This document shows, piece after piece, positions 13,401 to 49,008 of a DNA stretch of 64,000 bases. The position numbers and the translations under genes are program-made. Origin of the DNA: Kutzneria buriramensis (GTDB taxonomy: Bacteria > Actinomycetota > Actinomycetes > Mycobacteriales > Pseudonocardiaceae); contig NZ_QUNO01000013.1 in the NCBI RefSeq assembly GCF_003387475.1, forward strand, positions 186,001-250,000. The letters run 5' to 3'. The notes beneath the pieces are model-generated. The model did not search any database. It was not told the origin of the DNA and saw nothing but the letters and a program-made list of their open reading frames with translations. How positions within the stretch are numbered: the stretch's first letter is position 1; each line of letters starts with the position of its first letter.

Positions 13401-14938
13401 CCGCCGTGGCGCACGGGAAGCGGCTGCTGCTGGACCACGAGTACGCCGTCTTCGAGCAGCGCGACCCGCAGCGGCTGGAGCCGCTGGCCGTGCGCGGCCA
13501 GCGGCACGGACGCAACCGGGTGGACCTGAGCGAGCCCTCCCCCGTCGCGGAGGCGATCGCCTGCCGGTCGCCGATCTGGCTGGATCGCCTCGCGGACCTG
13601 CGGGACTCCTACCCGGGTTTCATCGACGAGGCGATGTCCGCCGGCTTCCGCTCCGGCGCGGTGATTCCGTTGCTGGCCAACGGAAAGTGCATCGGCGTGC
13701 TGGCGCTGGCCAGCCGCCGCGAGTTCCCGCTGACCGACGGCGACAAGCGCGCCGCGCTGGCGTTGGCCGAGCAGTGCGCGCAGGCGCTGGACCGGGCCCG
13801 CCTGTACCAGGCCGAGCACGAGATCGCCGAGACGTTGCAACGGAGTCTGCTGCCGGCGCGGCTGCCGGTGCTGGACCGTCTCGCGCTGGCCGCCCGCTAC
13901 CTCGCCGGGGCGGCCTTCAGCCAGGCCGGCGGCGACTGGTACGACGTGCTTCCGCTGGACGACGACCGGGTCGCGCTGATCGTCGGGGACGTCGTCGGCC
14001 AGGGGCCGCGGGCGGCCGCCGCCATGGGCCAGCTGCGCAGCACGCTCGCCGCGTACCTGCTGGAGGGGCACCCGCCGGCCAGCGCCCTGGCGCGGCTGGA
14101 CGAGTTCGCCGCCCGCATCCCCGACGCCCTGGCGTCCACGGTGGTGTGCGTGGTGGTCGACTGCGCGGCGGCGGAGCTGCGCTGGGCGCGCGCCGGGCAC
14201 CTGCCGCCGTTGGTCATCATGGACGGTCGCACCGAGTTCCTGAGCGGTGCTCGCGGACCGGTGCTGGGTCTGGGCACCGGCATGAAGTTCACCGAGGAAC
14301 GCTGCTCGCTGTCGCCGCGCGCCGGCATCGTGCTGTACACGGACGGCCTGGTCGAGCGGCGGGACGCCGACCTGGACGCCGACCTCGCGCGACTGGCCGA
14401 GACGGCGACGGACCTGCCGCCCGAGGACCTCGCGGTCTGGCTGGTCGACCACCTGCTGACCGACGAGGGCCCCAGCGACGACGTGGCGCTGGTGGTCGCG
14501 CGGCTGATGCCCGAGCCGCTGCTCCGCACGCTGCCGGCCCGGCCCGACCAACTGGCCGTGTCCCGGGCCGACATCGCCGAGTGGGCGCGGCGGATCGGGC
14601 TGCCCGGCCCGCTGACCGAGGACCTGCTGCTGATCTCCGGTGAGGCCACGGCGAACGCCATCGAGCACGCCTACCGGGACCGCCCGCCCGGCGAGTTCAG
14701 CTACGACCTGCGCTGCACGCCCGACGGCGGCATCGCCGGCGTGGTCAGCGACAACGGCTGCTGGCGTCCGCCGCCCGCCGACAACGGCAGCCGGGGTCGC
14801 GGCCTGTCCATGATCCGGGCCGCCTCCACCCGTTCGGACGTGCACGGCTCGGCCGCCGGCACGCGCGTCGAATTCACGCTCCCGCCCGCGGTTGCCGGCC
14901 CCGGTGGGGCTGGCTATGGTCGGGTTCATGGGCGCTGA
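10466..14938 (+). CDS. Hybrid sensor kinase / SpoIIE phosphatase / anti-sigma kinase-like multidomain protein
   Basis: 1490 residues read as PAS (about 40-160), GAF (170-305), HisKA with H325 in NISHEFRTP, HATPase (about 425-545), receiver with acidic pair D582/D583 and phosphoacceptor D626 in ISDVMMPG, PAS (about 705-825), GAF, GAF, SpoIIE-type PP2C phosphatase (about 1125-1345, GGDWYD at 1155-1160), and a C-terminal RsbW-like HATPase (SGEATANAIEHA). The protein can thus phosphorylate, receive phosphate, dephosphorylate STAS antagonists and bind as an anti-sigma-type kinase. The STAS gene follows with overlap and is the obvious partner. GTG 10466 or GTG 10490 may be the start; neither has a strong ribosome binding site. 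Confidence 0.9.
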   Translation: MAERPARSVSDVFPGSSEMATRMRAFDWAASALGEPADWPETMRAAVRICLTSRFPMILWWGPELRFLYNDAYLPLLGSKHPALDKPGRQVWSEIWHIIGPMLDSVLATGEATWSDDLLLPMNRHGYWEETYWTYSYSPLLDEAGAVVGVFTAVADTTARVVGGRRMAALQDLSAQAGGTTVAEACDRIQGWAARHGADVPHVQIALGRTGDDRWPLAQVIRDGEPLVVGDVTGLPTGGWATPPTEAMVLPLRNDAGDEPLGAVVLAASGGRALDEDYQAFLRLVADQIAALVNGAMAYQAQQRRAEELAELDRSKTVFFSNISHEFRTPLTLIAGPLRELRETAPPAVDEQLSMIERNAMRLGKLVNALLDFSRIEAGRVQARYEPVDLGALTTELASVFRAAMEKAGLDLRVDCGTLDRPVHVDREMWEKVVLNLLSNAFKFTLAGSVTVTLRADGDHAVLCVRDTGVGIPEPEMARLFERFHRIEQPRARSTEGSGIGLALVRELVRLHGGSIEAESVADEGTCFTVRIPFGDGHLPAAKVAPSAEAATPYLEEALRWLPPDVPSGGPFDQGPGYVLVADDNADMRDYLARLLGARHTVQTVGDGARALDLVRSDPPDLLISDVMMPGLDGISLVRELRSDPRTARLPVLLLSARAGQEAAAEGLRAGADDYLVKPFAAGELLARVNTHVRLGRVRRQGEERFRTMADVAPALIWASDRDGRRVLTNRGWHEFTGQDGLGEQWQAALHTDDRDRYLGTLRRATETGEPFDIEYRLRRADGAYHWVLEHAVPIGSGEEFNGHVASCVDVNERYREAERQRLLAQVGLALDAEPGVRHRMERLTALLIDARLADTCTVSHITDAGLPAVLASAGAPEIPPTVASIDEPTLVDGGMMVLPLRARGELLGVLSMHRSADGPPYQENDLLTAAKIADRAGVALDNALLLAEEQATARRLALLQEATSDFSAATTPHRVAETAVAHGKRLLLDHEYAVFEQRDPQRLEPLAVRGQRHGRNRVDLSEPSPVAEAIACRSPIWLDRLADLRDSYPGFIDEAMSAGFRSGAVIPLLANGKCIGVLALASRREFPLTDGDKRAALALAEQCAQALDRARLYQAEHEIAETLQRSLLPARLPVLDRLALAARYLAGAAFSQAGGDWYDVLPLDDDRVALIVGDVVGQGPRAAAAMGQLRSTLAAYLLEGHPPASALARLDEFAARIPDALASTVVCVVVDCAAAELRWARAGHLPPLVIMDGRTEFLSGARGPVLGLGTGMKFTEERCSLSPRAGIVLYTDGLVERRDADLDADLARLAETATDLPPEDLAVWLVDHLLTDEGPSDDVALVVARLMPEPLLRTLPARPDQLAVSRADIAEWARRIGLPGPLTEDLLLISGEATANAIEHAYRDRPPGEFSYDLRCTPDGGIAGVVSDNGCWRPPPADNGSRGRGLSMIRAASTRSDVHGSAAGTRVEFTLPPAVAGPGGAGYGRVHGR

Positions 14939-39283: not shown

Positions 39284-40876
39284 ATGTGGCGTACCCGTCC
39301 GCTGGCGACCCAGATCTTGCTCTGTGTGCTGGCGATCCTGCTGGTGACGAGCGCGGCCGGCGCCGTGCTCTACGCCAACCTCACCGACAAGACCCTCGAC
39401 GGTGAGTACAAGCAGCGCGCCACTGACATCGCGTACACGGTCGCGCAGATCCCTGCGATCGCCGACGCCCTGGCTCACAAAGATCCCGACCACCGCATTC
39501 AGGCGCTGGCCGAACAGGTCCGCAAGAACACCAGCGCCAGCTACGTCGTGGTGGCCGACCGGGACGGCGTGCGGTACTCGCATCCCACACTGTCGCTGAT
39601 CGGCCAGCGCCTCGAGGAACCCGTTGTCGCGCTGGACGGAAACGTCCACACCGGAATCGACCCCGGCAGCCTCGGCAACTCCGCCAACGCCAAGGTGCCG
39701 CTGCGCGCGTCGGACGGCGCGATCATCGGCGAGGTTTCCGTCGGCATCCCGGAGGAGCGGGTCAGCAGCCAGATCAGCACCCAGATCATGGACATCGCGC
39801 TGTACTCGCTGCTCGCGCTGGGCATCGGCGTGCTGGCCTCCTGGTTGCTCGCCCGCGCCCTCAAACGCGTGACATTCGGGCTGGAGCTGTCCGAGATCGC
39901 CACGCTGTTGCAGGAACGGGAGGCGATGCTGCACGGCATCAGGGAAGGCGTCGTCGGCATCGACGCCAAGGGCTGCGTCAACGTGATCAACGACGAGGCC
40001 CGCCGGCTGCTGGGCATCCGCCGTGCCGGCACTGGCCGCCCGGTCTCGGAGTTGCTGCCGGCGGGCCGGCTGCGGGATCTGCTCGCGGACGGCCCGCTGG
40101 GCAGCGACGAGGTCGTGGTGACCGACGATTTCCTGTTGGTGGTCAACAGAATGCCGGTTGTCCTGGCCGGCCGCCCGGGCGGGCACGTGGTGACCCTGCG
40201 GGACCGCACCGAGCTGGAGGGCCTGATGCGGGAACTGCATGCGCTGACCGGACTCACCAACGCCCTTCGCGCCCAGGAACACGAATTCACCAACCGGCTG
40301 CACGTGCTGTCGGGCCTGCTCGGACTGGGCGAGATCGACGAGGCCGCCCGCTACCTCGCCGAAGTCGCCGGCGGCGCGACGGCACAGGCGGGCGACATCC
40401 AGGCCCGGATCGCGCCGGCCGAGCTCGCCGCACTTCTGGTGGCGAAGGTGACCACGGCCGCCGAGTCCGGCGTGCGGCTGATCCTCGACCCGGAATCGGA
40501 GCTGGACCGCCCGTACGGGGAGACCGGGCCGCTGCTCACCGTGCTGGGCAACCTCATCGACAACGCCGTGGACGCGGCGGCCGGTGCGGCACAACCCGGC
40601 ACGGTGACCGTTCGGATCACCGACATCGACGACGTGGCCCACGTGGTCGTCAGCGACACCGGCCCGGGCATCTCCCAACCCGACATCGAGAAGATCTTCC
40701 TCGACGGCTACTCGACCAAGTCGACGCGGGACGGCATGCGTCGTGGGCTGGGACTGGCCCTGGTACGTCGGCTGGTGGTGCGGGCGGGCGGCACGATCGA
40801 CGTCACGCCCGGACCCGGCGCGCGGTTCGACATCAGACTTCCATTGCACACGAACGAACTGGAGGCCGCGAAATGA
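39284..40876 (+). CDS. CitA/DcuS-type sensor histidine kinase
   Basis: 530 residues: TM1 (ILLCVLAILLVTSAAGAVLY), an extracytoplasmic PASTA-free PAS-like sensor (about 35-165), TM2 (YSLLALGIGVLASWLLA), a cytoplasmic PAS (about 210-310), an H-box with H333 in AQEHEFTNRLH, and a HATPase with NLIDNAVDAA and DTGPGI. This is the layout of kinases that sense citrate or C4-dicarboxylates. ATG 39284 follows GGAGTGG. The response regulator overlaps its end (ATGA). The ligand is unknown and may be the substrate of the divergent importer. Confidence 0.85.
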   Translation: MWRTRPLATQILLCVLAILLVTSAAGAVLYANLTDKTLDGEYKQRATDIAYTVAQIPAIADALAHKDPDHRIQALAEQVRKNTSASYVVVADRDGVRYSHPTLSLIGQRLEEPVVALDGNVHTGIDPGSLGNSANAKVPLRASDGAIIGEVSVGIPEERVSSQISTQIMDIALYSLLALGIGVLASWLLARALKRVTFGLELSEIATLLQEREAMLHGIREGVVGIDAKGCVNVINDEARRLLGIRRAGTGRPVSELLPAGRLRDLLADGPLGSDEVVVTDDFLLVVNRMPVVLAGRPGGHVVTLRDRTELEGLMRELHALTGLTNALRAQEHEFTNRLHVLSGLLGLGEIDEAARYLAEVAGGATAQAGDIQARIAPAELAALLVAKVTTAAESGVRLILDPESELDRPYGETGPLLTVLGNLIDNAVDAAAGAAQPGTVTVRITDIDDVAHVVVSDTGPGISQPDIEKIFLDGYSTKSTRDGMRRGLGLALVRRLVVRAGGTIDVTPGPGARFDIRLPLHTNELEAAK

Positions 40877-42697: not shown

Positions 42698-43642
42698 TCA
42701 CGGGCGAACGCGGATGACCGTCTTCCCCTTGACCCGCTCGGTCGGGTTGAGGGCGGCGACGGCATCGTCCAGGGTCGCGGTGGTGCCGATGTTCGTCCGC
42801 AGTCGTCCGTCCCGCACCCACTGGACGATCTCACTCAGTTGGGCGCGGTCGGGCACGACGACGAAGTCGACCGCGAGGCCGTCGGCGGGCCGAGCCTCGG
42901 GCGGCCCGGTGACGGTCACCAGTGTTCCTCCGGCTCGGATCAGGCCCGCGGACCACTTCTGGATTTCTCCGCCGAGGACGTCGAACACCAGATCGACGCC
43001 TCCGACCTCGTCCAACGAGTCGCTCTGAAGGTCGATGAACTCGTGCGCGCCGAAATCGAGCGCGATCTGCCGACCGGCGGCACGTCCGGTGCCGATGACG
43101 TGCGCGCCGGCCTCACGGGCGAGCTGGGCTGCCATTGATCCGACTGCGCCAGCCGCACCATGCACCAGGACGCTCTGCCCCGCCTGGAGGCGGCCGTGTT
43201 CGAACAGACCCTGCCACGCCGTCAAGCCCGACATCACGAGGCCGGCGCCCACCGTGAAGTCGACGTCACCCGGCAGCGGCGCGAGGTTGCGCGCCTCGAC
43301 GACCGTGTACTCCGCCAGCGTGCCGTCGCGAGTCCAGTCCGTGAGGCCGAACACCCGCTGACCCACCGACAGCCCCGTCGTGCCATAGCTGAGCGCGGTG
43401 ACGACTCCCGCCAACTCGTGCCCGGGAATCGACGGCGTCCGATCACGGCCGAGGCGGTCTGTCCAGGTCGAGGGCCATTCCAGCTCATTCCCGGTGAATC
43501 CCGACGCGTGAACCTCTACGACGACATCGCCGTAGCTTGCGCCCGAGAGGCCGGCGAGCCTGGCCGCATCCGGGTCCGGCCGCTCCGACAGCGTCATCCC
43601 GGCTGTCCCGGCGTCCCGGTCCGTCACCACGATCGCCTTCAT
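42698..43642 (-). CDS. NADP-dependent quinone oxidoreductase-like MDR, copy 1
   Basis: 314 residues of the zinc-free medium-chain reductase family: N-terminal MKAIVVTD, GHELAGVV, and cofactor motif LVHGAAGAVGSMAAQLA. No structural zinc cysteines are present, as in quinone oxidoreductases and enoyl reductases. ATG 43642 follows GAGGGATCCAC. It is a tandem duplicate of the gene at 43747: over the last 136 residues only 16 differ. It has a nine-residue insertion near residue 30 (LAGLSGASY) that copy 2 lacks. Confidence 0.85.
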   Translation of the reverse strand: MKAIVVTDRDAGTAGMTLSERPDPDAARLAGLSGASYGDVVVEVHASGFTGNELEWPSTWTDRLGRDRTPSIPGHELAGVVTALSYGTTGLSVGQRVFGLTDWTRDGTLAEYTVVEARNLAPLPGDVDFTVGAGLVMSGLTAWQGLFEHGRLQAGQSVLVHGAAGAVGSMAAQLAREAGAHVIGTGRAAGRQIALDFGAHEFIDLQSDSLDEVGGVDLVFDVLGGEIQKWSAGLIRAGGTLVTVTGPPEARPADGLAVDFVVVPDRAQLSEIVQWVRDGRLRTNIGTTATLDDAVAALNPTERVKGKTVIRVRP

Positions 43643-43746
43643 GTGGATCCCTCGCTGTATCGGTCCGCGCCTGCCCGGCTCTCGAGTCCGGCTCATTTTC
43701 CGTGCTGGCTCGACCAGCTGGCCATACCTCGTTGTTCGCGGAGTCC

Positions 43747-44664
43747 TTATGGACGAACGCGGATGACCGTCTTTCCCTTGACCCGCTCGGTCGGGTTGAA
43801 GGCGGCGACGGCATCGTCCAGGGTCGCGGTGGTGCCGATGAGTGTCCGCAGTCGTCCGTCCCGCACCCGCTGGGCGATCTCACTCAGTTGGGCGCGGTCG
43901 GCCTCGACGACGAAGTCGATCGCCAAGCCGTCGGCGGGCCGAGCCTCCGGCGGGCCGGCGATGGTCACCAGTGTTCCTCCGGCTCGGATCAGGCCCGCGG
44001 ACCGTTTCAGGATCTCTCCGCCGAAAATGTCGAACACCAGATCGACGCCGCCGACCTCGTCCAACGAGTCGCTCTGAAGGTCGACGAACTCGTGCGCGCC
44101 GAAATCGAGCGCGGTCTGCCGGTCGGCGGCACGTCCGGTGCCGATGACGTGCGCGCCGGCCTCGCGGGCGAGCTGCGTCACCACTGAACCGACTCCACCG
44201 GCAGCGCCGTGCACCAGGACGCTCTGCCCCGCCTGGACACGGCCGTGCACGAACAATCCCTGCCACGCGGTCAGGCCCGAGATCGGAAGGCTGGCGCCCA
44301 CCGTGAAGTCGACGTCACCCGGCAGCGGCGCGAGGTTGCGCGCCTCGACGGCCACGTACTCGGCAAGGGTGCCGTCGCGGGTCCAGTCCGTGAGGCCGAA
44401 CACCCGCTGCCCCACCGACAAGCCGGTTGTCCCATAGCCGAGAGCGCTGACCACTCCGGCCAGCTCGTGCCCGGGAATCGACGGCGTCCGGTCACGGCCG
44501 AGACGATCGACCCAGGTCGGGTCCCACTCCAGCTCGCCGGTCGTGAACCCGGACGCATGAACCTCAACCAGCACATCGTTCCCCGCAGCCGCGGGCCGGG
44601 GACGTTCCGCCAGCGTCATCCCGGCCAGTCCCGCGGCCTGATCCGTCACCACGATCGCCTTCAT
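43747..44664 (-). CDS. NADP-dependent quinone oxidoreductase-like MDR, copy 2
   Basis: 305 residues, same family as copy 1, with GHELAGVVSAL and LVHGAAGGVGSVVTQLA. ATG 44664 follows GGGAGGCGCC. It is separated from copy 1 by 103 bp. Upstream, a TGGAC-N6-GTCCA dyad at 44715 and a sequence shared with two other intergenic regions suggest control by the TetR protein at 47307. MocR, the next gene upstream on the same strand, is the alternative regulator. The likely reaction is NADPH-dependent reduction of quinones or enones. Confidence 0.85.
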   Translation of the reverse strand: MKAIVVTDQAAGLAGMTLAERPRPAAAGNDVLVEVHASGFTTGELEWDPTWVDRLGRDRTPSIPGHELAGVVSALGYGTTGLSVGQRVFGLTDWTRDGTLAEYVAVEARNLAPLPGDVDFTVGASLPISGLTAWQGLFVHGRVQAGQSVLVHGAAGGVGSVVTQLAREAGAHVIGTGRAADRQTALDFGAHEFVDLQSDSLDEVGGVDLVFDIFGGEILKRSAGLIRAGGTLVTIAGPPEARPADGLAIDFVVEADRAQLSEIAQRVRDGRLRTLIGTTATLDDAVAAFNPTERVKGKTVIRVRP

Positions 44665-44714: not shown

Positions 44715-44730
44715 TGGACCATGGAGTCCA
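44715..44730. promoter_or_regulatory. Putative operator O1, TGGAC-N6-GTCCA
   Basis: Perfect 5-bp arms with a 6-base spacer, 50 bp upstream of the copy 2 oxidoreductase. It matches the same dyad at 48108 exactly and near-matches at 47250 and 47987. All four lie beside TetR, SDR or oxidoreductase genes. Confidence 0.6.
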
Positions 44731-44820
44731 TTCCGACGGACCACGCTAACCCGGTTTCGGCCCGAGATCTGGGTCCACTTGACACCCGCGAACGGGAACC
44801 AGTTCACCGAAGAGTGCGAA
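44731..44820. repeat. Intergenic module copy S1
   Basis: Core CTGGGTCCACTTGACACC (44769-44786) followed by GCGAACGGGAACCA. The same block occurs at 47138-47213 (same orientation) and 48009-48104 (inverted). Its right end covers the last codons and stop of the MocR gene. Confidence 0.75.
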
Positions 44821-46216
44821 CCAGGGCGTCCAACGCACCCGCCCAGGCACTGGGGGACGGCGCGGCGAAGCCGATGGCCACGCCGTCACGGTCCGATGTG
44901 GACTCGGGGTGCCGGAAGAAGTCGAGGGGCTCGACCGTGACCTGTTCGCGCGCCGCGCGGCGCACGAGTTCGGCACCGGTTCGACCGGGCTGGTCGAGCA
45001 CGATGTGCAGTCCGGCGGACATCCCGGTCACGCGCGCGGTCGGCGCGTGCCGGCCGATCGTCTCGACCAGCTGCTGACGTCGCCGGCGGTACTGCGCACG
45101 CATCGCGCGGATGTGCCGGTCGTACGCGCCCGACTCGATGAACTCGGTCATCGCCAACTGGTTGACGAACCCTACGGTCTCCTCGGTTTCCCCCTTCTGC
45201 TCGGCGACCGCGCCGACCAGGCGGTCCGGCAGGACGAGCCAGCCCAGGCGCAGTCCCGGCGCCAGCGACTTGCTCGCGGTGCCCAGGTAGATCACGTGAT
45301 CGTGATCCAGACCCTGCAACGCGCCCACCGGCGACCGGTCGTAGCGAAACTCGCCGTCGTAGTCGTCCTCGATGATCAACGCACCCCGCCGCCGCGCCCA
45401 GTCCACGACCGCCGCCCGCCGGTCGGAGTGCAGCGCCACGCCCAACGGGAACTGGTGTGACGGCGTGAGCAGCACCGCGCCCGGACTCGGCGCCTGGTCG
45501 AGCGCCGAGAGGTCCGCGCCGTCGGAGTCGACCGGGAGCGAGACGGTGTCGATCCCGGCTTTCACCAACGCCTCGCGCTGGGTCGGCAGACCGAACTCCT
45601 CGACCGCCACCGTCGTGGCGCCGGCCTTCGCCAGCGCGGCGGCGACGAGCCGCAAACCCTCCGCGGCCCCGCTGCACACGACGACGCTGTCCGCTCGCAC
45701 ACGCAGTCCCCGGGCGCGAGCCAGGTAGCGGGCGACGGCCTCACGCAGTTCACTCCGGCCGTGCGGATCGGTGTACCCGAACGCTTCGAACGGCGCCGTG
45801 CTCACCGTCCGCTTCACCGCCCGAATCCACTCGTCCCGCGGGAACGACGACAGATCCGGCTGCCCGGGCCGCAGATTGTGCACCAGCTGCGGGCGTGCGA
45901 CCGGCGGCCGCGGCCGTTCCCGTTCGGCCACGGGCTCCGGCGAACGCTGCGCCACCTCCGTGCCGGAACCGTGCACCCCGGTCAGCCATCCTTCGCTGAT
46001 CAGCTCCGAGTACACACGGACGACCGTGTTCCGGCCCAGCCCGAGATCGGCGGCCAGCACACGACTCGAGGGCAGCCTCGTCCCCGGCGCCAGCCGGCCG
46101 GTGCGGATCGCCTCGCGGAACGCATCCATGAGCCCCGCTCGCACATTGCGGCCGATATGGCCCAGATGCAGGTCGAGGCCGGACGTCCGAGTACCGCCAG
46201 CCGCTTGCTCGGTCAT
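44804..46216 (-). CDS. MocR/PdxR-type GntR regulator
   Basis: 470 residues: an N-terminal GntR winged helix (about 22-90, RLPSSRVLAADLGLGRNTVV) joined by a linker to a fold-type I aminotransferase-like domain (about 115-465) with PLP lysine K316 in GTASKSLAPGLRLGW and IIEDDYDGEFRY. MocR regulators sense PLP or amino compounds; typical targets are PLP synthesis or amine metabolism genes. ATG 46216 begins at the conserved domain, though no clear ribosome binding site precedes it. Its 3' end is part of the repeated intergenic module. Confidence 0.9.
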   Translation of the reverse strand: MTEQAAGGTRTSGLDLHLGHIGRNVRAGLMDAFREAIRTGRLAPGTRLPSSRVLAADLGLGRNTVVRVYSELISEGWLTGVHGSGTEVAQRSPEPVAERERPRPPVARPQLVHNLRPGQPDLSSFPRDEWIRAVKRTVSTAPFEAFGYTDPHGRSELREAVARYLARARGLRVRADSVVVCSGAAEGLRLVAAALAKAGATTVAVEEFGLPTQREALVKAGIDTVSLPVDSDGADLSALDQAPSPGAVLLTPSHQFPLGVALHSDRRAAVVDWARRRGALIIEDDYDGEFRYDRSPVGALQGLDHDHVIYLGTASKSLAPGLRLGWLVLPDRLVGAVAEQKGETEETVGFVNQLAMTEFIESGAYDRHIRAMRAQYRRRRQQLVETIGRHAPTARVTGMSAGLHIVLDQPGRTGAELVRRAAREQVTVEPLDFFRHPESTSDRDGVAIGFAAPSPSAWAGALDALVRTLR

Positions 46217-46266
46217 GTCGGACAACGATACGGACCGGTCGCGCAACTGTGCCGTCGGCACAGGAC

Positions 46267-46716
46267 TCACGAGTGAGGATCGTTGGCTTGGAGCGGGTCT
46301 CCGGTGTTGGAGACATAGACGACCAACAGCTTGGCCCGTTCGGTCGGGCTGGGATTCGCGGCGACGACGTGGTGGGCGCCCGGCTGTTCGAACCAGTTCT
46401 CGCCTTGGTGGTACGTGGTCGCGGGCTTGTCGTCGACCTGGCTTCGCACAGCGCCTTGCAGCACGTAGGCGTACACGAAAGCCTGACCGTGCCGGTGCGG
46501 CGGCGCAGCCGCACCTGGCGGGAAGTCCACGATCTGCGAGGTGAACGTCTTGCCCTCAGCGTTCGGAAGCGCTTGCTGGAGCAGGACACTCACCTGGGGC
46601 GGCGACGAGGTGGCCGTGCTCGCCGCGGGCATGCTCTCGTTGGCAGAGCCACAGGCTGTTGCGCCGGCCAGCGCGGCAATGGCCAGAAGACGACCGACGA
46701 TGTGCGATGGAACCAT
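46267..46716 (-). CDS. Cupin-domain lipoprotein
   Basis: 149 residues with a lipoprotein signal peptide (AIAALAGATAC, lipobox cysteine at about residue 22) and a single cupin-2 barrel: PPHRHGQAFVYAYVLQG (metal-binding HxH and following strand) and GENWFEQPGAHHVVAAN. An exported cupin of this type could bind a metal or small ligand. ATG 46716 follows GTGGGAG. It lies downstream of the DoxX remnant on the same strand, suggesting a former DoxX-cupin operon. Confidence 0.8.
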   Translation of the reverse strand: MVPSHIVGRLLAIAALAGATACGSANESMPAASTATSSPPQVSVLLQQALPNAEGKTFTSQIVDFPPGAAAPPHRHGQAFVYAYVLQGAVRSQVDDKPATTYHQGENWFEQPGAHHVVAANPSPTERAKLLVVYVSNTGDPLQANDPHS

Positions 46717-46779
46717 GAGTGCTCCCACTTGCGGTCTGTTGACGAGGTGGATTCGGCGTTGCTCGACCTGATCGTTTGC

Positions 46780-47042
46780 TCACTGTCGACAGTTCGGTCG
46801 ACGCAGAGGGCGAACGTGTCCACGGGCACGAGAGCCAGCGACGAAGACGCCCCACACGACCGACGCGATGTGCGGCGGGCCCCAGCAGCCGAACCGATCG
46901 GCGACGGCCGAGAGGAACCCAGCGCCAACGCCAGGAGCGCAAGCCCGGTCGCGACCGACCACACACGCTCCCGCAGGGCGACGGCCGTCAAGGACAGCTC
47001 CCTCGAGCGTCCCCCTTCCCCGCCAGCCATTGGCCCGCACAA
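46780..47042 (-). pseudogene. DoxX-family membrane protein, frameshifted remnant
   Basis: The frame from 47042 encodes RERVWSVATGLALLALALG. A one-base shift then continues as FLSAVADRFGCWGPPHIASV and VVWGVFVAG, which is the signature region of DoxX-like quinone-associated membrane proteins (GFLSAVADRFGLWGPP). The reading ends soon after, so the remaining helices are lost. The module S2 and a degenerate half operator (TGGAC at 47069) lie upstream, so it was probably part of the same regulon. Confidence 0.65.
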
Positions 47043-47137
47043 CCATCAGATCTCCCCTGGTAGACGCCTGGACGGGCGCGTTGCGCTCCGTGCCGAGTCG
47101 ACGCGGCCGGCAACCGACGCGGCTCCGAAACTAGTCC

Positions 47138-47213
47138 GTTTTCGGCTCGGAACCTGGGTCCACTTGGCATCCGGGTACGGGAACCAATCGCGCGGGCGAA
47201 CTCAGCGAAGAGC
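47138..47213. repeat. Intergenic module copy S2
   Basis: Core CTGGGTCCACTTGGCATCC (47154-47172) followed by GGGTACGGGAACCA. Over the 33-base block from CTGGG to ACCA it differs from copy S3 at two positions and from S1 at four. Located between the DoxX remnant and the TetR gene. Confidence 0.75.
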
Positions 47214-47249
47214 GCTGCCCGAGGAGGACGCGCGGTCCGATGGCCGAAC

Positions 47250-47265
47250 AGGACCGTGCAGTCCA
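47250..47265. promoter_or_regulatory. Putative operator O2, AGGAC-N6-GTCCA
   Basis: One mismatch from the TGGAC-N6-GTCCA dyad, ending 41 bp before the TetR start. This position suits autoregulation. Confidence 0.5.
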
Positions 47266-47306
47266 ATGCGGCAGCGGCTGTGATCAAATGGGGTAGCTTG
47301 AGACCC

Positions 47307-47936
47307 GTGAGCACGCCGGAGGACGCACAGCCGGCGCGGAGGCTGACGCCACGTGGCGCCGCCACCCGCGCGCGCATCGTGGCGGCTGCTGTCGAGCTGA
47401 TGTACGTGAAGGGCGTGAACGCGACCACGCTGGACGACGTCCGGGCCGCGAGCAATACCAGCAAGTCCCAGCTCTACAACCACTTCCCGGACAGGGAGGA
47501 ACTGGTCCGGGCCGTCGTCGCCGCGCGTGCCGCGCAGGTCCTCGAGCGTGAACGCGGCTACCTTCAGCGCCTGAAGTCGTTCCGCGGTCTGGTCCGCTGG
47601 CGCGACGCGCTGGTGCAGCGAAACGCTTTGCAGAACGGCGCTTACGGCTGCGGGCTGGGCTCAATGGCCAGCGAGCTGGCGGACCAGGACGACCAGGCCC
47701 GCGCCACGCTCGCCGAGTCGTTCATGGAATGGGAAGGGCTGCTCGCCGCCGGCCTGCGGCGGATGCGGGAGAGCGGGACGCTCAGGCCGGACGCCGACCC
47801 GGCCAAGCTTGCCACGGGTCTGATGGCGGCCTTGCAAGGTGGGTACCTCCTCGCCGAGACCGCACACGACATCAAGCCCATGGAAATCGCCCTCGACATG
47901 GCGCTTGACCACGTGAAGTCGCTCCTCACGGCGTGA
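47307..47936 (+). CDS. TetR-family transcriptional regulator
   Basis: 209 residues. The N-terminal TetR domain runs from about 12 to 65 (RGAATRARIVAAAVELMYVKG, then TTLDDVRAASNTSKSQLYNHFPDREEL), with the recognition helix at SKSQLYNHF. The C-terminal ligand domain ends LALDMALDHVKSLL-like. GTG 47307 puts the HTH near the N-terminus. Dyads O2 upstream and O3/O4 downstream suggest it controls itself, the SDR and the oxidoreductase genes. TetR regulators of this LmrA/YxaF-like group respond to flavonoids or other small aromatics, but the ligand here is unknown. Confidence 0.85.
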   Translation: MSTPEDAQPARRLTPRGAATRARIVAAAVELMYVKGVNATTLDDVRAASNTSKSQLYNHFPDREELVRAVVAARAAQVLERERGYLQRLKSFRGLVRWRDALVQRNALQNGAYGCGLGSMASELADQDDQARATLAESFMEWEGLLAAGLRRMRESGTLRPDADPAKLATGLMAALQGGYLLAETAHDIKPMEIALDMALDHVKSLLTA

Positions 47937-47986
47937 CGGCATGGGTCCGGACGCGGCCGGGCGGCGATGTCCAGGGCAGCGATTAT

Positions 47987-48002
47987 TGGACTAAATAGTC
48001 CC
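47987..48002. promoter_or_regulatory. Putative operator O3, TGGAC-N6-GTCCC
   Basis: The dyad extends outward as ATTGGACTA / TAGTCCCAAT with AA between. It has an A/T-rich centre unlike the surrounding DNA. It lies 50 bp after the TetR stop, in the region upstream of the SDR. Confidence 0.55.
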
Positions 48003-48008
48003 AATAGC

Positions 48009-48104
48009 GTTCGCAGTCTTCGGTGAACGCACCCACCCGAGTGGTTCCCGTTCCTGGATGCCAAGTGGACCCAGAATCCGAGCCGAAGCCGGTTAGCCTG
48101 AACC
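48009..48104. repeat. Intergenic module copy S3 (inverted)
   Basis: Reverse-complement copy of S1/S2. It includes TTCGCAGTCTTCGGTGA, which resembles the last codons of the MocR gene, so the copied segment seems to have included a MocR 3' end. TAGCCT at 48094-48099 could serve as a -10 element for the SDR. Confidence 0.75.
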
Positions 48105-48107
48105 AAC

Positions 48108-48123
48108 TGGACTGACGCGTCCA
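48108..48123. promoter_or_regulatory. Putative operator O4, TGGAC-N6-GTCCA
   Basis: Perfect arms, extended by one further pair (CTGGAC/GTCCAG). It lies just downstream of the possible -10 in S3 and 138 bp before the SDR start, as a repressor site would. Confidence 0.6.
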
Positions 48124-48261: not shown

Positions 48262-49008
48262 ATGTCGGCACGTACAGCCCTGATCACCGGCGGTACCAGC
48301 GGGATCGGGAAGGCGACCGCCGAGATTCTGCACAACCGCGGTTACCGCGTCGCTGTCACCGGACAACGTCCGGAGAACGTCGCTCGGGCGCGGGCGGAAC
48401 TGCCCGAAGATGTCCTGGTCCTGGCGGCTGACGCGCGCTCGCTCGCTGACACCGACCAGGTCGTGTCCGAAGTCGGAGCACGATTCGGAAGTCTGACGAC
48501 GCTGTTCCTGAACGCCGGCGTCAGCCGTCCGATGAGGCTCGACACCTGCGACGAAGCCGCTTACGACGAGGTGTTCGCCGTCAACACCAAAGGGCAGTTC
48601 TTCACGCTGGTCAAGGCGCTGCCGCTGCTGGCCGACGGCGCTTCGGTCATTGTCACCGTGGGTATCGGAGCGACGCGTAGCCTGACCGGCAACAGCGTCA
48701 CGGCCGGGTCACACGGCGCGTTGCTGGCCATGATCCCAACACTTGCCCTCGAACTCGCTCCCCGCCGCATCCGAGTCAACGCGGTCAGCCCGGGATTCAC
48801 CGACACGCCCATGACGCGGACCTCGCTCCGCACGGTTTCCGATGACGTCGCGGCGACGATGGCGGCCATGGCGGAGAGGAACCCGTTCGGCCGCCTCGGC
48901 GTGCCTGCGGACATCGCCGGGACGGTCGCGTTCCTGGCTTCGGACGATGCCGCGTACGTCACGGGGCAAGAGATCGTGGTTTCCGGGGGCGCCGGGCTGG
49001 CCATCTGA
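48262..49008 (+). CDS. SDR-family protein lacking the catalytic Tyr/Lys
   Basis: 248 residues with a good cofactor motif GGTSGIG (10-16), LNAG (83-86) and the C-terminal YVTGQEIVVSGG. The expected catalytic YxxxK is T147...H151 and the serine position is glycine-like (VTVGIGAT), so normal SDR catalysis is unlikely. Similar variants exist in actinobacteria beside TetR genes. GGAGTG upstream supports ATG 48262; an in-frame GTG at 48136 would add 42 residues of poor quality. Located behind module S3 and dyads O3/O4, so TetR control is likely. Confidence 0.8.
   Translation: MSARTALITGGTSGIGKATAEILHNRGYRVAVTGQRPENVARARAELPEDVLVLAADARSLADTDQVVSEVGARFGSLTTLFLNAGVSRPMRLDTCDEAAYDEVFAVNTKGQFFTLVKALPLLADGASVIVTVGIGATRSLTGNSVTAGSHGALLAMIPTLALELAPRRIRVNAVSPGFTDTPMTRTSLRTVSDDVAATMAAMAERNPFGRLGVPADIAGTVAFLASDDAAYVTGQEIVVSGGAGLAI

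Follow-up and report, generated by a model that had tools for sequence, protein, structure and literature searches.

Introduction

MocR-type transcription regulators, such as PdxR, TauR and GabR, join a GntR-type winged helix-turn-helix (HTH) to an aminotransferase-like domain with an SK lysine motif. Their DNA motifs are described as two to four boxes, mostly TGG or TGT, with a spacing of generally one or several helical turns (section 9 of PMC5320631); several characterised members are activators, and some regulons include oxidoreductases (Suvorova & Rodionov 2016, PMC5320631). We analysed a 64-kb stretch of Kutzneria buriramensis DNA (contig NZ_QUNO01000013.1, positions 186,001 to 250,000; hereafter the window), in which a promoter block containing a 33-bp module occurs three times around the genes of a PdxR-like MocR regulator and a TetR regulator. 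This MocR has the two domains, the SK motif and, in its candidate site, the TGG boxes of the described proteins. The locus differs from the PdxR, TauR and GabR regulons in its proposed targets, which are an MDR-family oxidoreductase, an SDR-family oxidoreductase, a DoxX protein and a cupin (the genes identified here include no pdx, gab or tau), and in having a TetR-type operator at the same promoters. Neither quinone nor DoxX is a term used in the main text of PMC5320631, and the terms AAAGTGG and GTGG were not found in the accessible part of PMC4944035.

The TetR regulator belongs to the same C-terminal domain family as the LmrA/YxaF-type repressors (PF21993; YxaF, 1sgm) and likewise has a dyad near its own start. 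It differs from them in the dyad itself (TGGAC-N6-GTCC), in its low similarity to YxaF (phmmer E 7.8e-8) and in sharing promoters with MocR. Promoters are reportedly duplicated and placed before other genes, processes known as putatively mobile promoters, promoter propagation or horizontal regulatory transfer. In contrast to what is said of those cases, some copies described here carry a fossil of the 3' end of a regulator gene, and the spread took place within one cluster. Judged by titles and the beginnings of abstracts, no publication on this arrangement came up among papers on regulons of MocR, duplicated promoters, the transfer of regulation or combinations of MocR, TetR and DoxX, which is not proof of absence.

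We propose, at a probability of about 0.75, that the locus is a two-layer circuit in which MocR acts on the copied module and TetR on the dyads, and that the promoter cassette spread by copying. Sequence seldom reveals how bacterial regulators gain targets; in this locus, regulator-gene sequence lying out of place beside several operators tells where they came from. If the proposal is true, the locus may show how bacteria recruit new genes into an existing control circuit. The case also offers a directly testable two-input promoter, as well as a candidate site and regulon for an uncharacterised PdxR-like MocR group.

Results

The three copies of the block (S1, S2 and S3) align pairwise at 80% over 56 nt (S1 44746-44801 with S2 47131-47186), 82% over 76 nt (S2 47136-47211 with inverted S3 48017-48092) and 82% over 51 nt (S1 44751-44801 with inverted S3 48042-48092). 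The match of 44802-44821 to inverted 48009-48028 (95% over 20 nt) pairs the MocR gene's end with a copy of it. The part common to the three blocks is best put as a 33-bp module, TGGTTCCCGT-N4-GGNTGNCAAGTGGACCCAG, with 27 fixed letters. The blocks and four TGGAC/GTCC dyads are present where the preliminary description of this DNA had placed them, and the order of module, dyad and gene that it gave for S1 and S3 is correct; the dyad at S2 sits on the other side, upstream of TetR. The features are as follows.

43747..44664, minus strand: OxR2, MDR-family quinone-type oxidoreductase, S1 target
44715..44730, no strand: S1 dyad TGGACCATGGAGTCCA shortly after the -10, proposed as an operator of TetR
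44743..44748, minus strand: S1 -10 hexamer TAGCGT, 20 nt after the module
44769..44801, minus strand: S1 33-bp module (proposed MocR site) in the OxR2 promoter, starting 2 nt past the MocR stop codon
44804..44821, minus strand: 3' end of the MocR gene, source sequence of the fossil copies
44804..46216, minus strand: MocR-type regulator (GntR-type winged HTH and aminotransferase domain), PdxR-like; the open reading frame reaches 46270, and the start at 46216 is guessed
46267..46728, minus strand: cupin-domain protein, upstream of MocR on the same strand
46780..47046, minus strand: DoxX/MauE-like remnant with an internal deletion and indels
47128..47133, minus strand: S2 -10 hexamer TAGTTT
47154..47186, minus strand: S2 33-bp module, facing the DoxX-cupin-MocR operon
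47202..47219, minus strand: possible MocR 3'-end fossil at S2, weak (14/18), ending 15 nt before the module
47250..47265, no strand: dyad proposed as the operator for TetR autoregulation, 56 nt before the TetR start
47307..47936, plus strand: TetR regulator (TetR_C_13 / LmrA-YxaF-like C-terminal domain)
47987..48002, no strand: dyad TGGACTAAATAGTCCC, probably an operator orphaned by the loss of a gene pair
48009..48028, plus strand: MocR 3'-end fossil at S3 (17/18 over the last 18 nt), ending 15 nt before the module
48042..48074, plus strand: S3 33-bp module, facing SDR
48094..48099, plus strand: S3 -10 hexamer TAGCCT, 19 nt after the module
48108..48123, no strand: S3 dyad TGGACTGACGCGTCCA, just downstream of the -10
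48262..49008, plus strand: SDR-family oxidoreductase, S3 target

In the 11.97-Mb genome of the window (G000; below, G numbers denote genomes and L numbers fetched loci), the pattern TGGTTCCCGT-N9-CCAAGTGGACCCAG with up to three mismatches was found exactly three times, at S1, S2 and S3, and its reversed control gave no match. The 33-bp module is far from chance in this genome. All three modules lie in this one cluster, where no pdx gene is among the genes identified. Several copies with homologous flanks in one locus could also be expected of a mobile repeat unrelated to regulation, similar to a miniature inverted-repeat transposable element. We consider this scarcely credible, as there are just three copies in 12 Mb, they keep a fixed distance to a -10-like hexamer and they stand at orthologous genes across species. 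No terminal inverted repeats, target-site duplications or polymorphic copies turned up in the repeat comparison of the window, which was not a dedicated search.

Of seven genomes of the genus that were searched, five have two or three modules (up to 2 mismatches), each set within one cluster and upstream of orthologous OxR2, DoxX and SDR genes. A looser motif pattern applied to the family matched 92 of 390 genomes, and its reversed control matched widely too; these matches were mostly taken as chance, and the pattern was replaced by a stricter one. With up to three mismatches, the latter was found in 16 of 386 genomes at 32 places (30 of them at up to 2 mismatches), the reversed pattern in 9 genomes, once each. 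With the exception of the one in G369, every inspected module precedes a homologue of OxR2, DoxX or SDR, or a small cupin gene that itself precedes OxR2. The G369 module was treated as probable chance (a single 3-mismatch match with 6 mismatches to the full module and no related gene found nearby) and is excluded from the table of 32 sites used below.

The distribution of the module largely coincided with that of MocR. A close MocR (E 1e-180 or better) is encoded in 15 of the 386 genomes by 16 genes of 75-100% identity, the one in G229 with an in-frame TGA. Fourteen of these genomes are also among the 16 with the module, and the fifteenth (G297) has a copy with 5 mismatches beside MocR. The remaining two module genomes, G246 and G369, have no MocR of this closeness. 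Allowing up to 6 mismatches of the 27 letters, the module was present at all 16 MocR loci of at least 75% identity (G297 needs 5, G322 needs 6) and at none of 16 loci around TetR homologues (40-90% identity) without such a MocR in the stretch. At 77 loci of more distant MocR homologues (49-58% identity, mostly Streptomyces), there was no module at up to 7 mismatches and five at 8, which is the level of reversed sequence; 1.75 Mb of the latter gave none below 8. The putative recognition helix NTVVR[VA]YSEL is found in 16/16 module-linked MocRs and in 0/12 others (12 of some 80 available). By this association and co-variation, the 33-bp module is probably the site of MocR.

The module had originally been attributed to TetR. 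Its gene does form part of the cluster of the window, as it does in G001, G002 and G004, and dyads accompany S1 and S3, as would be expected if TetR bound both module and dyads and controlled the whole set alone, with MocR as a bystander. However, six of the 15 MocR genomes, all with the module, have no TetR of 60% identity: G163 and G236 (none at 1e-30), G229 (best E 1.2e-31), G003 (40%), G297 (47%) and G322 (56%). Conversely, G227, G047 and G049 encode a TetR of 86-88% identity, yet have neither a close MocR nor the module. We therefore rejected TetR as the binder of the module, and sole control by TetR appears very improbable.

The module has a fixed geometry. All 32 copies have TGG at positions 1-3, CC at 6-7, GTGG at 24-27, C at 29 and 31 and G at 33. 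In 30 of the 32, a TAG begins exactly 20 nt past the module (counted on the downstream letters from offset 20); at S3, the distance is 19 nt, and in L247 the letters at this place are TGGTTT. If TAGNNT is taken as the -10, the second module box reaches the -35 position, and the letters 17-18 nt upstream of the -10 are, judged by eye, unlike TTGACA. The -35 position is the usual place of an activator touching RNA polymerase. Since the module is placed over this region, it is most likely an activator site, whereas the S1 and S3 dyads begin shortly after the -10, where repressors that block transcription usually sit; from these positions we infer the roles of activator and repressor. At the OxR2-side copy of G004, at G222b and at G229, the ATG of a small cupin gene lies 13 nt past the start of TAGCGT, which suits a leaderless transcript.

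The dyad pattern TGGAC-N6-GTCC occurs in the window at 39633, 44715, 47251, 47987 and 48108, four of these within 3.4 kb. With one mismatch, it was counted 52 times, compared to 30.2 (standard deviation 6.6) over 100 shuffles, none of which reached 52. Across the 11.97-Mb genome, TGGAC-N6-GTCCA was found at 44 places and the reversed control pattern at 129. The plain dyad pattern is thus not enriched genome-wide, and the notable part is the local clustering. The perfect TGGAC-N6-GTCCA palindrome at 39633-39648 lies inside a long open frame upstream of a response-regulator gene and is probably due to chance.

Strict dyads were counted per class of fetched locus, each class against its reversed sequence. 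The 15 TetR loci that lack a close MocR (211 kb) gave 35, against 1 in reverse, and the five loci with both regulators gave 13, against 0. The nine MocR loci whose fetched stretch contains no TetR (145 kb) gave none, against 1 in reverse, and the 77 other loci gave 6, against 7. L219 and L220 (G131 and G107), which have MocR and dyads and a TetR of about 65% identity some 15-32 kb off, were excluded here. Dyads of the form TGGACTACCGCGTCCA escape the strict pattern; OxR2 of G222, a genome whose TetR (90%) is about 34 kb away, has one of them. For TetR genes of at least 86% identity, 8 of 9 loci have a dyad 44-59 nt before the start. Of the 29 distinct module copies compared, 11 are followed by a dyad that begins 34-39 nt downstream, and nine of these 11 belong to genomes with a TetR of at least 86%. 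These data point to TetR as the likely dyad-binding protein, which probably controls itself, OxR2 and SDR, as had been suggested; the preliminary description did not take MocR into account as a regulator, although S2 precedes an operon ending in MocR.

Alternatively, one form of MocR could bind the module and another form the TGGAC inverted repeats, with TetR acting only on itself. The dyad halves share TGGAC with the module box TGGACC, and the OxR2 dyads persist in G003 and G297 without a close TetR. For PdxR of Bacillus clausii, a preference for direct versus inverted repeats that shifts with pyridoxal 5'-phosphate (PLP) is reported (PMC5320631). However, TetR loci that lack a close MocR are rich in dyads, dyads sit at TetR promoters, the SDR gene of G131 has an upstream dyad without a module, and six of the 14 copies found at the 3' end of MocR (the 13 adjacent ones and G163) have no dyad after the module. 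We therefore consider binding of both sites by MocR unlikely.

The promoters of SDR orthologues exist in different states: both module and dyad in G000, G001, G002 and G004, a module without an intact dyad in G224, a module without a dyad in G003 and a dyad without a module in G131. Natural genomes thus give module only, dyad only and both at the same SDR gene. OxR2 orthologues (at least 83% identity) have module and dyad in G000-G004, G222 and G224 and, by the dyad pattern used in this comparison, a module without a dyad in G236, G163, G297 and G322. From these states, the merging of two regulons is clear for SDR and not for OxR2; we infer that the SDR promoter is where the MocR and TetR regulons came together.

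The dyad at 47987 is probably the leftover operator of a lost gene pair and not part of the SDR promoter. In both G002 and G004, a gene for a TetR-like protein of 165 amino acids without an HTH, tail-to-tail with TetR, has a similar dyad about 41 nt before it, and in G002 an acetyltransferase gene diverges from this gene. In the window, both genes of that pair are gone between TetR and S3, and the dyad is kept. Alignments with relatives around this dyad match mainly in the operator core, with scores within the random range, so its reading as a leftover operator rests on gene order.

The 165-amino-acid protein (L041:8781-9278) consists of the TetR C-terminal domain only (no HTH by Pfam), and its gene has a dyad upstream. 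Homologues are found in L043, L185, L186, L187 and L189 and not in the cluster of the window; the protein is possibly an anti-repressor or a dimer partner.

The module is located 1-15 nt past the MocR stop codon in 13 of 16 MocR loci and overlaps the gene end in G163. In G222b, it is further downstream of MocR but before OxR2, and in G322 the MocR-linked module faces DoxX and another one faces OxR2 on the same contig. This placement at most MocR loci makes the gap between MocR and OxR2 its common home. We compared the 19 copies not directly after MocR (including G163) with 30 nt of a MocR 3' end. Fossils of this sequence precede the modules at G004 OxR2 (28/30), G224 SDR (27), G004 DoxX (26) and G002 DoxX (25), and only 1 of 60,000 random 75-nt stretches reached 25. 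In an 18-nt test, which was set up after seeing the sequences and covered nine copies not directly after MocR, S3 scored 17/18 (2e-5), S2 14/18 (0.0025, weak) and the four 30-nt positives again reached 2e-5 to 2e-4; no fossil was seen at G001 DoxX, G001 SDR and G002 SDR (0.69). The spacing from fossil to module is 13-15 nt in most cases, as at the MocR-adjacent copy of G224, and 5 nt at G004 OxR2, the same as at G004's own MocR. Likeness also extends past the module: S3 and the G002 OxR2 promoter agree in 115/150 columns, dyad included. The coding fossils at several copies thus support the copying of a promoter segment from beside the MocR 3' end, in agreement with the preliminary description.

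A recent duplication confined to the window was rejected, because the module is also present at orthologous genes of further members of the genus and of other genera.

The likeness of the copies could instead result from selection on a shared operator, or from gene conversion, without copying of segments. The module itself is under selection, and 15 of the 19 copies not directly after MocR have no 30-nt fossil above background. This explanation seems quite improbable to us, as MocR 3' coding sequence outside its gene precedes several copies at a similar spacing (13-15 nt; 5 nt at G004 OxR2) and the likeness runs well past the module, e.g. between G000 S3 and G002 OxR2 (115/150 columns).

Discussion

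In the circuit that we propose, the cassette would consist of the module (TGGTTCCCGT-N13-AGTGGACCCAG), sometimes preceded by a MocR 3'-end fossil, 20 nt and a TAGNNT -10, to which S1 and S3 add a TGGAC-N6-GTCCA dyad at about the transcription start. MocR (44804-46216) would bind the 33-bp module, most likely as an activator, and since S2 precedes the DoxX-cupin-MocR operon, it probably controls itself. TetR would bind the dyad 56 nt upstream of its own gene for self-control and, on the dyads past the -10 at OxR2 and SDR, would block RNA polymerase. OxR2 and SDR would thus have two inputs (MocR on, TetR off), and the DoxX-cupin-MocR operon the MocR input only. The enzymes suggest quinone or electrophile stress as the source of the inducers. 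The original cassette would have been the one between MocR and OxR2, from which duplicated segments with the MocR tail may have brought the SDR and DoxX promoters under MocR. That the regulator 3' end together with the adjacent promoter, with or without the TetR operator, was the spreading unit, and that by landing before a gene which elsewhere belongs to the TetR circuit (SDR) it merged two regulons, is a more specific claim, to which we give even odds. On this reading, a surviving coding-sequence fossil would mark the copying step.

Several observations weigh against the proposed circuit. The TGG boxes (positions 1-3 and 25-27 in 32/32 copies) are, on the plainest reading, 24 bp apart, which is not a whole number of helical turns and does not fit the general statement on MocR box spacing in PMC5320631. 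The module of G246, before an OxR2 homologue, occurs without a MocR at E 1e-180. An upstream dyad was found in only 5 of 14 TetR relatives of 62-76% identity, and none of eight DoxX copies has a dyad after the -10. Two of the 11 post-module dyads, at OxR2 of G003 and G297, are in genomes without a close TetR, so that some of these dyads may be relics or sites of another protein, even of MocR. OxR2 orthologues in the TetR loci L191, L221, L222, L223 and L227 have no module and no dyad within 650 nt. Finally, the copies without a 30-nt fossil above background include S2 and S3 (18/30 each), and the fossils at S3 and, weakly, S2 are positive only in the post hoc 18-nt test.

Neighbouring genes and proteins

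OxR1, OxR2, MocR, cupin and the DoxX remnant are encoded on the minus strand, TetR and SDR on the plus strand. OxR1 (42698-43696) and OxR2 (43747-44664) are tandem MDR oxidoreductase paralogues (83%), and the module is upstream of OxR2 only. The DoxX gene is dead, as had been recognised: compared to an intact 173-amino-acid homologue, it has a large internal deletion and frame-changing indels. To speak of a DoxX-cupin operon as something of the past was nevertheless too strong, because the frames of cupin and MocR, next in line on that strand, are open, and S2 therefore still precedes an open cupin-MocR pair.

TetR has the domains PF00440 (E 4.2e-12), PF16925 (4e-14) and PF21993 (1.7e-12). MocR has an N-terminal GntR-type winged HTH (PF00392, E 7.2e-14, above the cut-off) and a C-terminal fold-type-I aminotransferase domain (PF00155, E 8.7e-22), and it aligns with the GabR structure 4n0b over residues 51-470 (E 1.6e-58). 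Its score against the PdxR equivalog NF052282 (NCBIfam) is 396.8 bits, with a curated cut-off of 320. The sequence SKSLAPGLR aligns with SKSLLPGLR of GabR, and SK is kept in 28/28 aligned homologues; we take its lysine to be the PLP-binding one. The MocR start was guessed at 46216, about 50 bp past the cupin stop, because 15 homologous genes align only from residues 5-25.

G222 has two close MocR copies at different places (L210 and L211), each with a module before an OxR2 homologue. In the Mycobacteriaceae loci L076 and L077, a MocR of 62-64% identity is found near DoxX, cupin and TGGAC dyads, in another gene order and without the 33-bp module. In G003, which has no TetR in the cluster, the SDR gene (L042:11530-12102 and 14676-14861) is interrupted by about 2.5 kb of other sequence.

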